Source of the DNA: an uncultured Gammaproteobacteria bacterium | Lineage (GTDB): Bacteria; Pseudomonadota; Gammaproteobacteria; UBA6429; Thiohalophilaceae | Direction of reading: 5' to 3' | Length of the DNA: 64,000 bases | Assembly (NCBI GenBank): GCA_913064945.1 | Contig: CAJYAN010000005.1 | Span: forward strand, 186,001-250,000 | Translations under genes and position numbers: made by a program | Shown: piece by piece, positions 11,105-15,319 of the stretch | Layout: the number at the start of each line of letters is the position of its first letter | How positions within the stretch are numbered: the first letter of the stretch is position 1 | Notes under the pieces: generated by a model | What the model was told of the DNA's origin: nothing | Seen by the model: the letters and a program-made list of their open reading frames with translations, nothing else | The model's database searches: none

Positions 11105-11671
11105 ATGCATGAACAGGCAGACGTCACACAGCTATTGCTCGACTGGCGGGGCGGTGAAGAAAAGGCGTTGAATGTGTTATTGCCTATCGTGCAGGATAAT
11201 CTGCACCAGCTGGCAGCAAGTTATATGCGTGGCGAGAACGCCGGTCATACACTGCAGGCGACGGCACTGGTCAATGAGGCCTTTCTGCGTCTGGTGGATG
11301 CGAAGCTGACCTGGCAGAACCGCGCCCACTTTATCGCCATTGCCGCTAATACCATGCGCCGCATTCTGGTCGACCATGCCCGTGCCAAACAACGAGAAAA
11401 GCGCGGTGGCGACGCCATCCAGGTGACGTTACACGAAACCAGTATTGGGGGCGGAGAAGGGCCGGACATCCTGGACCTGGAAGATGTTTTAACCCGACTG
11501 ACAACATTTGATGCGCGCAAGGCACAGGTCATCGAGATGAGCTTTTTTGGCGGTCTGACCTATGATGAGATCGCCGAGGTGCTGGCGATCTCTCCCGCCA
11601 CGGTGGATCGTGAGTTACGTTTTGCCAAGGCCTGGCTCTATCGGGAAATGCACCAGGACACCTGTCATTAG
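11105..11671 (+). CDS. ECF RNA polymerase sigma factor, Ser/Thr-kinase-linked type
   Basis: A 188-residue sigma factor of the ECF type described by PF07638/TIGR02999. Region 2 includes HTLQATALVNEAFLRLVD (about 48-65) and NRAHFIAIAANTMRRILVDH. Region 4 has MSFFGGLTYDEIAEVLAISP, with a helix-turn-helix for the -35 element. These factors usually have no anti-sigma factor and are encoded next to a Ser/Thr kinase. In Vibrio parahaemolyticus, threonine phosphorylation of such a factor (EcfP) by its kinase (PknT) activates it. Here a kinase and a haem-motif sensor gene converge on it from the other strand, with a 9-base gap between stop codons. I start at ATG 11105; an in-frame TTG at 11078 is possible but adds no conserved sequence. 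Confidence 0.9.
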   Translation: MHEQADVTQLLLDWRGGEEKALNVLLPIVQDNLHQLAASYMRGENAGHTLQATALVNEAFLRLVDAKLTWQNRAHFIAIAANTMRRILVDHARAKQREKRGGDAIQVTLHETSIGGGEGPDILDLEDVLTRLTTFDARKAQVIEMSFFGGLTYDEIAEVLAISPATVDRELRFAKAWLYREMHQDTCH

Positions 11672-11680
11672 TTTCATCCG

Positions 11681-12550
11681 CTATGTGTCAATCATATTCA
11701 TCGCGTTGACCAGGCTGCGTCGCATGCGGTTAAATGAACGTGATAGCGAGGCCACTTCATCCTTACCCTTCAGCTCATATTCCGGTTGGTCCATTTTACC
11801 CATGCTGACATCATGGGCGATGAGGGACATTTTTTTCACCGGCTGTACCACAATCTTATACAGCAGGATGTTGAGTAAAAGGATAATCAATAAAAAGACG
11901 GCACCGGTGGACAGTAAAAAGGTGCTCAGGGTCTGTCTGGCCCGCGCCAGCGCAACGTCCATGGAGACGCTGACAATCTGACTGCCAACCACTTCGTTGA
12001 GTTTCCAGCCAAAGCCATTCGATTCGCCGTAACGCGCCAGCATGGCCGGTGGTGCATCGCTGACCTTGCCGTGACAGGCCAGGCAACTTTCGTTTTTAAT
12101 CCGGATGGGACGGGCGATGTACAGGCTCTGACCCGTGGCGGTTTTATGTTCGCCGACAAGCTCGGTCTTTTGCGCATGGTTACGAAAATACTCAACCAGC
12201 CCCGTCTCCCACTCGGTAGCACGTGATGCGGGATTCGTTGGGTTAAGCGTCGCCTCTTTATAGGAATAATCGGGATACAGTTTTCTTAACCGGGCCACAT
12301 TGTTGGTGGCGGCATAGGCCGGAACAGTCTGCGGCAAAAAGTTATCTTTTTGCATGGCCAGCAGGGGGCGTATTTCCTCAATAGTATAATTGCGTACCGA
12401 CAGGGCGCTTTGCAGGATAATTCCGGCGGTATGCAGTACCTCTTCACGGGCATTACTCTGCAGGACGGTGTAGGCAATTTTACCGATAGCACCAATGCCG
12501 ATTATAAAGGCAATAAAAAAAGCCAGATTAAATTTTAACCAGAGTTTCAT
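11681..12550 (-). CDS. membrane sensor with DUF3365 domain, c-type haem motif and HAMP
   Basis: A 289-residue protein. A transmembrane helix (about 8-30) is followed by a periplasmic DUF3365 (Tll0287-like) domain with a single CxxCH motif (CLACHG, about residue 155), the signature for covalent haem c. A second membrane helix (about 211-235) precedes a cytoplasmic HAMP segment (VVQPVKKMSLIAHD to MRRSLVNAMN) that ends the protein. There is no kinase, cyclase or methyl-accepting domain, so the output must go to another protein. It follows the Ser/Thr kinase gene by 31 bases on the same strand, making that kinase the obvious partner. Redox state or a gas such as NO, CO or O2 is a plausible stimulus; that is inference from the haem motif. 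Confidence 0.85.
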   Translation of the reverse strand: MKLWLKFNLAFFIAFIIGIGAIGKIAYTVLQSNAREEVLHTAGIILQSALSVRNYTIEEIRPLLAMQKDNFLPQTVPAYAATNNVARLRKLYPDYSYKEATLNPTNPASRATEWETGLVEYFRNHAQKTELVGEHKTATGQSLYIARPIRIKNESCLACHGKVSDAPPAMLARYGESNGFGWKLNEVVGSQIVSVSMDVALARARQTLSTFLLSTGAVFLLIILLLNILLYKIVVQPVKKMSLIAHDVSMGKMDQPEYELKGKDEVASLSRSFNRMRRSLVNAMNMIDT

Positions 12551-12581
12551 AACATCCCCCTTTTAAAGAATTCAAAAAAAT

Positions 12582-14141
12582 TCACTCCGTCATAATTGAT
12601 TTCATTTTTTGACGCGCCGTAAGTTGTTCCGCTGGGTTTGTCAGGCTCTCGGCTAATATCTGACAGACGACGTCCCGGTCACCGCTGGTGGCAATCGCGC
12701 GGCGTATGAGTGAGCCGGCAATCGGTCCAACATAAGGTAGCAGGCAGGATTCAAGCTTTGCCAGTTGTACTGGTGTCAGTTCAAGGTGGTTGCTGGGATT
12801 GCTGACGTTGACGGGATTAACCGCCGGAGGCGTGGTGTTCATGGCGGCCTTGAGTTTCATTTTTTCAGCAAAGGAACGCTTCGTTATATCGTCGGGCAGC
12901 AGATCACAAAGTGCCGAGCAAAGCTGATCAATATTACTGGCGTGTCGGGCCTGTCGTTGTACCAGCTTGGTGCTGATTGGGCCCAGAGTTGGCGTGAGCA
13001 GGGCAATAATGATATCGAGAAAGGCAGGTTCCCACTCAAAGGCAATGTTGTCATTTTTAGTCAGGTGATTCGCACGACGTGTCACCTGTAGATTCGTCCC
13101 CTGGGACGCCTGTATCTGAAGACAGTCTTCCAGCATCGACTTTATATCGGCATAGCGTGCATTGCGATTGCGTTGCATGGCCTTACTGAGAATTGAGTGT
13201 AATGCCGGTGGAATACAGTCGGAAATGGATGCAGCGCGATCATCTGTCAGCACGGCCTCAACCACCTGGCTGGCACCATCACCATCGAATGCCGTCTTGC
13301 CTGTGAGCATTTCATACAGGGTAACGCCAAGTGCCCAGATATCGGCGCGGGCGTCGACCTCCTGTCCGCGCATTTGCTCTGGTGCCATATAGGCCAGGGT
13401 GCCGATCCCCATGCCGGTGCTGGTGAGGTGGATGTTGGCTACCTTGGCAATACCAAAATCAAGAATCTTAACGCCACGATCCTGAGTCAACATGATATTG
13501 GCGGGTTTGATATCACGGTGCACGATATCGTTGGCATGCGCGGCGGCGAGTCCGTCGGCGACCTGGATGGTTACCGCCAGGGCATCATGGCTTTGCAGGC
13601 AGCCGCGTTTCAGGCGCGCCGCCAGGGTTTCGCCCTGGTAGTAGGGCATGGTGATATACAGGTGCCCCTCCGGCGTTTCATTGATGTCATGGATGACACA
13701 TATATTAGGGTGATCGAGCCTGGATGCCGCGCGGGCCTCGGCCATAAAGCGCTGCCGTGATTCCGCCTTACTATGCATATTGGCGGGTAAAAACTTGAGG
13801 GCCACATCGCGCTCCAGGCGTGAGTCAAAGGCCTGATAGACCACCCCCATCCCACCAACTCCTATCTGGTCAATAATTCGATGGTGGCCGATGTCATCGC
13901 CGGTTTTGTATGGGGACGATATTCCACCAAAAGGGGGTACTACCGGTGACTGTTGATTCCATTTTTTTGTGGCAGCGAGATGGGCATCCAGGAGCGACAT
14001 GACCTCGTCCGACAGACGAGGTTCACCGGCACAGGCGTGGGCAACAAAGGCTGCCCGCTGCGCGGGGGGAATACCCAGTGCCTCATCAAAGATGGCCTGT
14101 AGTTTTTGCCAGTAGGTCTCGTCCATAAGTCGCCGGATCAT
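12582..14141 (-). CDS. cytoplasmic Ser/Thr protein kinase (ECF-linked)
   Basis: A 519-residue Hanks-type kinase. The N-terminal 75 residues (WQKLQAIFDEALGIPPAQRA, CAGEPRLSDEVMSLL) are the helical preface typical of kinases paired with ECF sigma factors. The kinase domain (about 90-350) has the glycine loop IGVGGMGVVY, VALKFL with the catalytic Lys, HRDIKPANIM, DFGIAK and GTLAYMAPEQ, so it should be active. No membrane helix is visible. The C-terminus holds two related helical units, around GPISTKLVQRQA and GPIAGSLIRRA (near residue 472), probably a protein-interaction module. It lies in an operon with the haem-motif/HAMP gene and converges on the sigma factor gene. ATG 14139-14141 has AAGG very close to it; an internal ATG at 14126 is the alternative. 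Confidence 0.9.
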   Translation of the reverse strand: MIRRLMDETYWQKLQAIFDEALGIPPAQRAAFVAHACAGEPRLSDEVMSLLDAHLAATKKWNQQSPVVPPFGGISSPYKTGDDIGHHRIIDQIGVGGMGVVYQAFDSRLERDVALKFLPANMHSKAESRQRFMAEARAASRLDHPNICVIHDINETPEGHLYITMPYYQGETLAARLKRGCLQSHDALAVTIQVADGLAAAHANDIVHRDIKPANIMLTQDRGVKILDFGIAKVANIHLTSTGMGIGTLAYMAPEQMRGQEVDARADIWALGVTLYEMLTGKTAFDGDGASQVVEAVLTDDRAASISDCIPPALHSILSKAMQRNRNARYADIKSMLEDCLQIQASQGTNLQVTRRANHLTKNDNIAFEWEPAFLDIIIALLTPTLGPISTKLVQRQARHASNIDQLCSALCDLLPDDITKRSFAEKMKLKAAMNTTPPAVNPVNVSNPSNHLELTPVQLAKLESCLLPYVGPIAGSLIRRAIATSGDRDVVCQILAESLTNPAEQLTARQKMKSIMTE

Positions 14142-14398: not shown

Positions 14399-15319
14399 AT
14401 GAACACACTCACGCAAAAAATGCGCACTACCACCATTTGTTTAATTACCGTTGCCGCCATTGCCCTGCCGGGAATCAGCCAGGCAGGCTGGTTTAGCAGC
14501 TCAAAGCCGGTTAAAAGTGTGAGTCACATCGCACACAGGACGACCGGTAGCGTAAGGCATGCAGCGACATCAACCGCCGGTAGTATCAAGGATAAGGTGA
14601 CAGATATCTCCAGTAAGGTGAATGAAATGGCAGCCCAGTTCGCGGAGAGCCGTCCGTTAGCCGACGCGATGAAAAATGGCAAAATGATGTCGCATCTGAC
14701 CGAAATGGTGCATTACATTAATGATTACCAGAAGGATTACGAGGACTTCAATAATCGTGGTGCAGATGAGATGCGCGACGATATTCGTCGCCTGGTGAGT
14801 TCTGTCAATGGCGTGATCAGCACCCTGGGAATGGACAATAAGGTGGCTGACCAGATGCAACGTGCCGCCGATATTATCGAAAAAGTGCCGGCGACCTTTT
14901 TGTATCCACTGGCAAAGTCTGGTCTGAGTGAAAAACTTAAAGCGACGCGCGACCGTTTTTTACAGATGAAGGATGACGTGACGCTGATTGCAACACTGCC
15001 ACGGGAAAAAGATGTCCTACTATACCCTGAGTCTTACAAGGCTGACCTTTGCCCCCTGGTCAATGACTACCACACCAAAGTTCAGCTGGCCGTACTGAGT
15101 GCTCGTATCAAACAGGACAAGTATGCGGTTGACCTGATGAGTAAGCTGATACCAGATGATTTAACTGTGAATATTGAAGTGGTTGGTGGCGGTGGTTTGA
15201 CGATTTCAAAGTTCCCGGTCCAGTACCTCTTCATCGCAATGAATACTGTTCTTGATGTTATCGAAATGCGTATCGATACCTACACGTCAATCGGCGGTGC
15301 CATGTGTACATCTAACTAA
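14399..15319 (+). CDS. secreted helical protein of unknown function
   Basis: A 306-residue protein with a clear Sec signal peptide (MNTLTQKMRTTTICLITVAA, then a cleavage-like SQAGW near 30). The mature part begins with a Ser/Thr/Lys-rich stretch containing repeated HIAHRTTGS/HAATSTAGS-like segments, followed by amphipathic helices (about 55-260). I do not recognise a family. Only three cysteines are visible, including two near the C-terminus (MCTSN end). AGGAG lies 9 bases before the ATG. It diverges from the Ser/Thr kinase gene across 257 bases, which makes it a possible target of the adjacent ECF sigma factor. That is inference from position only. Confidence 0.72.
   Translation: MNTLTQKMRTTTICLITVAAIALPGISQAGWFSSSKPVKSVSHIAHRTTGSVRHAATSTAGSIKDKVTDISSKVNEMAAQFAESRPLADAMKNGKMMSHLTEMVHYINDYQKDYEDFNNRGADEMRDDIRRLVSSVNGVISTLGMDNKVADQMQRAADIIEKVPATFLYPLAKSGLSEKLKATRDRFLQMKDDVTLIATLPREKDVLLYPESYKADLCPLVNDYHTKVQLAVLSARIKQDKYAVDLMSKLIPDDLTVNIEVVGGGGLTISKFPVQYLFIAMNTVLDVIEMRIDTYTSIGGAMCTSN

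Follow-up and report, generated by a model that had tools for sequence, protein, structure and literature searches.

In Archaeoglobus fulgidus, the receptor Af1503 has HAMP as its only cytosolic part, and the gene beside it encodes Af1502, a STAC protein (PMC4834066; PDB 5A1Q). STAC is defined by an LGPx(x)A motif and a four-helix bundle (PMC4834066). Af1503 was presented without a recognisable effector (PMC4834066), and the precise role of STAC has been called unclear (PMC13022988). Haem Cache receptors that bind NO have been described recently. The Pseudomonas azotoformans protein WP_033902098 (sCache_heme-TM2-HAMP) is a dimer that carries haem c and binds NO with a koff of 6.25e-4 per s (PMC12889525). 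On the output side, PknS-EcfK of Xanthomonas citri and PknT-EcfP of Vibrio, of the ECF43 type, combine a Hanks-type kinase gene with a nearby ECF sigma factor gene and no anti-sigma (PMC13147305, PMC8999054). The hallmark of kinase-activated ECF43 factors is a sigma2.2 region without acidic residues in which a Thr is kept (PMC8999054). PknS phosphorylates EcfK on T51 and T106, the latter being needed for function (PMC13147305), and in EcfP the phosphate sits on the corresponding Thr of sigma2.2 (PMC8999054).

The locus described here lies in a stretch of 64,000 nucleotides, which we call the window, and shares features with these systems. Like Af1503, its receptor ends at HAMP with RRSLxxAMxxL, and the product of a neighbouring gene has, like Af1502, an L/I-G-P-x-A motif, together with a predicted helical fold. 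However, Af1502 is a single bare STAC with no catalytic part, whereas the window has two STAC-like copies on a kinase (elsewhere on a cyclase). Af1503 is archaeal, whereas here the sensor is a haem Cache domain, the host is bacterial and a sigma factor can follow. The receptor also resembles in architecture the P. azotoformans protein, which has a Cache domain for haem c, a pair of TM helices and a HAMP at its end, and lacks an axial Cys; for the latter, the accessible part of PMC12889525 reports no partner protein. As in PknS-EcfK and PknT-EcfP, the sigma factor lacks the acidic sigma2.2 motif and has the same-site Thr and the linker Thr. PknS, in contrast, is a transmembrane receptor kinase, while the window's kinase appears soluble and tailed, with a separate haem receptor. 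In CbrA-type SLC5-STAC histidine kinases (PMC13022988), STAC likewise has a membrane module on one side and the signalling output on the other, but it is fused there in one polypeptide with the transporter and the histidine kinase. We consider it likely that the locus is one example of a widespread type of transmembrane receptor that is split in two: the HAMP-terminated protein signals, without covalent linkage, to soluble effectors that are interchangeable (Ser/Thr kinases, cyclases and fusions of the two) and carry STAC in tandem.

Layout of the locus and the predicted haem receptor

The three open reading frames lie where an earlier note on this DNA had placed them, with gaps of exactly 31 and 9 bases, and profile searches confirmed their domains. 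The absence of an anti-sigma gene adjacent to the ECF sigma gene, also claimed there, held as well. The sigma gene, on the plus strand, faces the receptor and kinase genes, both on the minus strand.

The kinase gene (12582..14141, minus strand) encodes an apparently soluble Hanks-type Ser/Thr kinase of 519 aa (Pkinase E=8.2e-52) with a C-terminal tail in two copies. By Pfam profile, the kinase domain spans residues 90-333 (13143..13874, minus strand). Its catalytic VAIK Lys (K116), HRD (208-210) and DFG (228-230) are intact, and they are invariant in 44 homologues. The predicted model has a PknB-like fold (Z 34), and a fold search with the whole model gave only kinase structures among its matches. 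No obvious transmembrane helix was seen in the kinase, whose best 19-residue hydropathy is 1.56 versus 2.79 for the receptor. It would therefore have no route of its own to the periplasm, and a separate receptor would supply its input.

The receptor (11681..12550, minus strand; 289 aa) consists, by Pfam profiles and predicted model, of an sCache_heme domain (DUF3365/Tll0287-like), two TM helices and HAMP, without output domain. It matches PF11845 (Tll0287-like, formerly DUF3365) with E=8.5e-40 and 136.9 bits against a cut-off of 24.1, and HAMP with E=1.8e-8. Its predicted model (pLDDT 88) matches Tll0287 (5B82; Foldseek E=2e-7, TMt 0.77), pointing to a Cache/Tll0287 fold. The predicted haem c attachment motif CLACH (residues 156-160; 12071..12085, minus strand) is a CxxCH that is invariant in homologues, and no second Cys is conserved among them. 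Tll0287 differs in this respect, with Cys/His ligation. The protein ends in the signature RRSLVNAMNMI (11690..11722, minus strand), a proposed docking helix singled out by motif counts among receptors. That the terminal HAMP reflects a broken gene was ruled out because some 100 loci have this kind of C-terminal end in common.

A PF11845 search of 144 relatives yielded a high-scoring group of receptors of about 290 residues resembling that of the window, and nearly every receptor among the 31 loci from these relatives had a kinase-like gene beside it. Scanning of named genomes added 80 loci; after removal of duplicates, 97 receptor loci were retained.

Since the receptor has no second conserved Cys, like the NO-binding P. 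azotoformans protein, NO is the leading candidate ligand. By this analogy with a single relative, the input is most likely NO and possibly redox state. A gene for NnrS was found in 19/24 genomes carrying the tail versus 56/120 others, a weak association in which kinship is not controlled. The window's own genome has NnrS and lacks nirS. At one sigma-containing locus, an NnrS (NO response) gene (L048:10011-11270, E=2e-107) is found close to the kinase gene, in divergent orientation to it. The haem domain might instead be a redox cytochrome, serving electron transfer or redox sensing. Stand-alone sCache_heme proteins do behave as redox proteins (PMC12889525), but the receptor has a HAMP and no second conserved Cys to act as axial ligand, like the NO-binding P. 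azotoformans protein. We regard a redox cytochrome as possible, though on the unlikely side.

The ECF sigma factor

The sigma gene (11105..11671, plus strand) encodes an ECF sigma factor of 188 aa (PF07638 E=1.2e-51; TIGR02999 E=9.9e-62, above cut-off), termed ECF43-like here on the strength of these broader models and its motif. In place of the acidic DxxD, its sigma2.2 region reads Q51-A52-T53-A54 (11255..11266, plus strand). The earlier note had named Thr49 and Thr53 as candidate phosphosites. Thr53 stands at the EcfP/EcfK phosphosite position, while Thr49 does not fit, so that by analogy Thr53 and not Thr49 would be the expected site. Thr108, in the sigma2-sigma4 linker (11426..11428, plus strand), corresponds to EcfK Thr106 with the same offset of two. 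Homologues of the sigma factor are encoded beside the receptor gene at seven further loci. In all eight, sigma2.2 is Q[APT]TA without acidic residues, and both Thr53 and Thr108 are invariant. A search of the regions preceding the sigma and kinase genes for a promoter motif in common found none.

The sigma factor had been taken as the core of the locus; our survey shows it to be an accessory of one clade. Most receptor-effector pairs have no sigma gene (it is present in 7/97 loci plus the window), and pairs elsewhere are accompanied by LuxR-type regulators and by Flp/Tad pilus genes, or lie inside T6SS clusters. These observations favour a reading in which receptor and kinase are paired, the sigma factor beside them acts independently or answers to some other control, and the kinase has other substrates. 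However, in the tree the eight sigma loci belong to a single clade that also takes in the LuxR-associated pairs and one further row (support 100/99), and the sigma gene lies end-to-end with the receptor gene in seven of the eight. The lack of acidic residues in sigma2.2 and the retention of Thr53 also speak against independence. Moreover, the link between sigma factor and receptor persists at L094 even though the kinase has moved away. We therefore judge an independent sigma factor unlikely and keep to one that is served by the pair. Since the sigma loci lie within a single clade, the factor was apparently recruited late, once or twice. Among the relatives, no tail kinase was found for L053 and L093.

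A further gene of the window (14399-15319, plus strand) lies upstream of the kinase gene and divergent from it. Its secreted product of 306 residues is of no recognised family, and the gene is a possible candidate target of the sigma factor.

Conservation of the pair and nature of the tail

The pairing of receptor and effector is well supported. An effector with the tail, whether kinase, class III cyclase or kinase-cyclase fusion, lies beside the receptor gene in 94 of the 97 non-redundant loci, usually on the same strand and mostly with gaps below 50 bases. The conserved neighbourhood implied by the earlier proposal of a haem-HAMP protein acting with a kinase was thus strongly confirmed. In a held-out test, the tail was recovered in 68/69 loci that had been left out of tail-model building. 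Of the three exceptions, L053 comes from an incomplete genome, on a contig of just 4.2 kb, L094 keeps a tail kinase elsewhere in the genome, unlinked from the receptor and sigma pair, and L050, with full flanks, has a receptor that has lost the signature at its HAMP end.

The tail was found in 24 of the 144 relatives' genomes, nearly always next to the receptor, and it is almost confined to such loci. Among 398 phylum-wide genomes, tail and receptor were each present in five and together in four, adjacent every time (Fisher p=2e-8), so that the co-occurrence of the two parts also held at this scale. The genome with the tail only (G482) has a diverged receptor with CATCY for CxxCH, and the match in the genome with the receptor only (G487) has no HAMP end. 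Since this diverged receptor (L217:4647-5516) has CATCY in place of CxxCH, its haem His ligation may be lost; it keeps its tail-bearing kinase. The window's own genome contains a second receptor-effector pair about 45 kb away, without sigma factor. On a plasmid of the cyanobacterium Rippkaea orientalis, a terminal-HAMP receptor (L240:3986-4894) had no adjacent tail effector.

The surroundings of the pairs vary. Six of them (L032, L033, L035, L037, L039 and L047) have a LuxR-type response regulator nearby, among them the second, sigma-less pair in the genome of the window, and five of the six are also near Flp/Tad pilus-like genes. Some receptor-kinase pairs (L238, L241, L242, L130, L162, L215 and L106) form part of type VI secretion clusters or lie close to them; in Skermanella, for instance, the gene order is tssM-tagF-receptor-kinase-tssH. 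This suggests a branch controlling T6SS. Upstream of the receptor, 32/97 loci encode a secreted protein of about 160 residues without Pfam match (e.g., L036:1024-1521, L041:2572-3063, L048:7300-7800 and L034:7139-7612), possibly a third, periplasmic component. No gene for it lies between the kinase and receptor genes of the window.

The tail unit has about 57 residues with the consensus 'L..yiGPiA..lV......el...La..i....R..F', and it nearly always occurs as two copies at the C-terminus of effectors. In the window's kinase, copy 1 covers residues 372-434 (12840..13028, minus strand; GP at 387-388; HMM 54 bits; pLDDT mostly >90) and copy 2 residues 457-518 (12588..12773, minus strand; GP at 472-473; HMM 49 bits; pLDDT mostly >89). 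In the predicted model both of these STAC-like units are compact and all-helical, with one long GP-bearing helix and two more. The GP is invariant in 24 aligned rows, mostly within [LIVM]GP[ILVM][AST], which fits the LGPx(x)A motif of STAC. A Pfam search gave no relevant match, ruling out a known Pfam domain.

Comparison of the tail profile with PDB sequences gave four weak matches, three of them to repeated or unrelated stretches. The only single-stretch match was to Af1502 (KKLLDELKKEIGPIAKIFLNKAMES), over its IGPIAK segment, with an E of 0.78 that is not significant alone. Alignment of the tail with two CbrA-type STACs by hhalign gave E=0.009 over 14 columns, at a probability of 4%. Such weak scores fit the reported divergence of the STAC family.

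The receptors give independent support, since those coupled to the tail share their HAMP-end signature with Af1503. Its strict form, [RHK][RK]S[LM]xxA[MILVF]xx[LI], is present in 53/64 coupled receptors and a looser form in 59/64, and it is seen in 0/8 relatives fused to an output domain. Two dCache receptors without haem also have a terminal HAMP and no output, and each adjoins a tail protein, which indicates that the tail tracks the terminal HAMP and not haem. These dCache_1-HAMP receptors (L209:1118-2926 and L210:2255-4213) end after HAMP, and the neighbouring proteins of about 194 residues have neither catalytic head; their N-terminal domain is of unrecognised type. Judged by its motif, its small helical fold and its genomic coupling to a HAMP-only receptor, the tail unit is probably STAC.

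The catalytic heads of the effectors differ, being class III cyclases, kinase-cyclase fusions or kinases (from three or more subfamilies), but the tail does not change. It is thus the likely interface that they share. Alternatively, the receptor could activate the kinase through the kinase domain or an N-terminal extension, and the tails could serve dimerisation or substrate docking. In its favour, the case for STAC is built on a short motif and on genomic reasoning. Against it, the tail is the only part that kinase, cyclase and fusion effectors have in common, and it also lies beside the two dCache-HAMP receptors on proteins without either head. We find this alternative quite improbable and retain the tail as the reader of HAMP. 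Adjacency could also reflect co-regulation without contact. That the pair is conserved merely through chance or a lineage-wide gene order is hardly credible: about 28 loci do belong to the family or class from which the window derives, but pairs occur across alpha-, beta- and gammaproteobacteria, as well as in records that bear the labels Nitrospirae and Acidobacteria. Between clades the order of the two genes is turned round, and the effector carries different heads.

Proposed mechanism and significance

Our best model, to which we give somewhat better than an even chance, is a two-protein receptor, a membrane haem sensor wired to a soluble kinase, that feeds a sigma factor. The membrane protein would place a Cache domain with covalent haem c in the periplasm, cross the membrane by two TM helices and end at HAMP. 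The soluble kinase would probably be recruited to this HAMP end, and switched by it, through the pair of STAC-like domains at its C-terminus. The binding of NO to the haem, as the most likely change there, or possibly a shift in redox state would flip the HAMP helices and alter kinase activity. The active kinase would then phosphorylate Thr53, and perhaps also Thr108, of the ECF43-like sigma factor, whose gene is convergent. This would supply the negative charge that sigma2.2 lacks, allowing the sigma factor to bind RNA polymerase. Docking, the direction of regulation, the ligand and phosphorylation of the window's sigma factor are the steps that we infer. The order from haem through HAMP and kinase to sigma factor is that of the earlier note and remains the best reading; the likely coupling element, the STAC-like tails of the kinase, had been missed there.

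In the openly accessible literature that was searched, no paper came up that connects STAC with Ser/Thr kinases, or that has a haem receptor as the input to a sigma factor of the ECF43 type. Because HAMP-only receptors and STAC-like tails travel here with assayable enzymes, signalling from HAMP to STAC becomes directly testable. The model also proposes a partner for haem Cache receptors that bind NO, a group described only recently, and a source of sensory input to sigma factors that kinases activate. If true, the split arrangement would give HAMP-only receptors a concrete output and a family of bacterial kinases an input.
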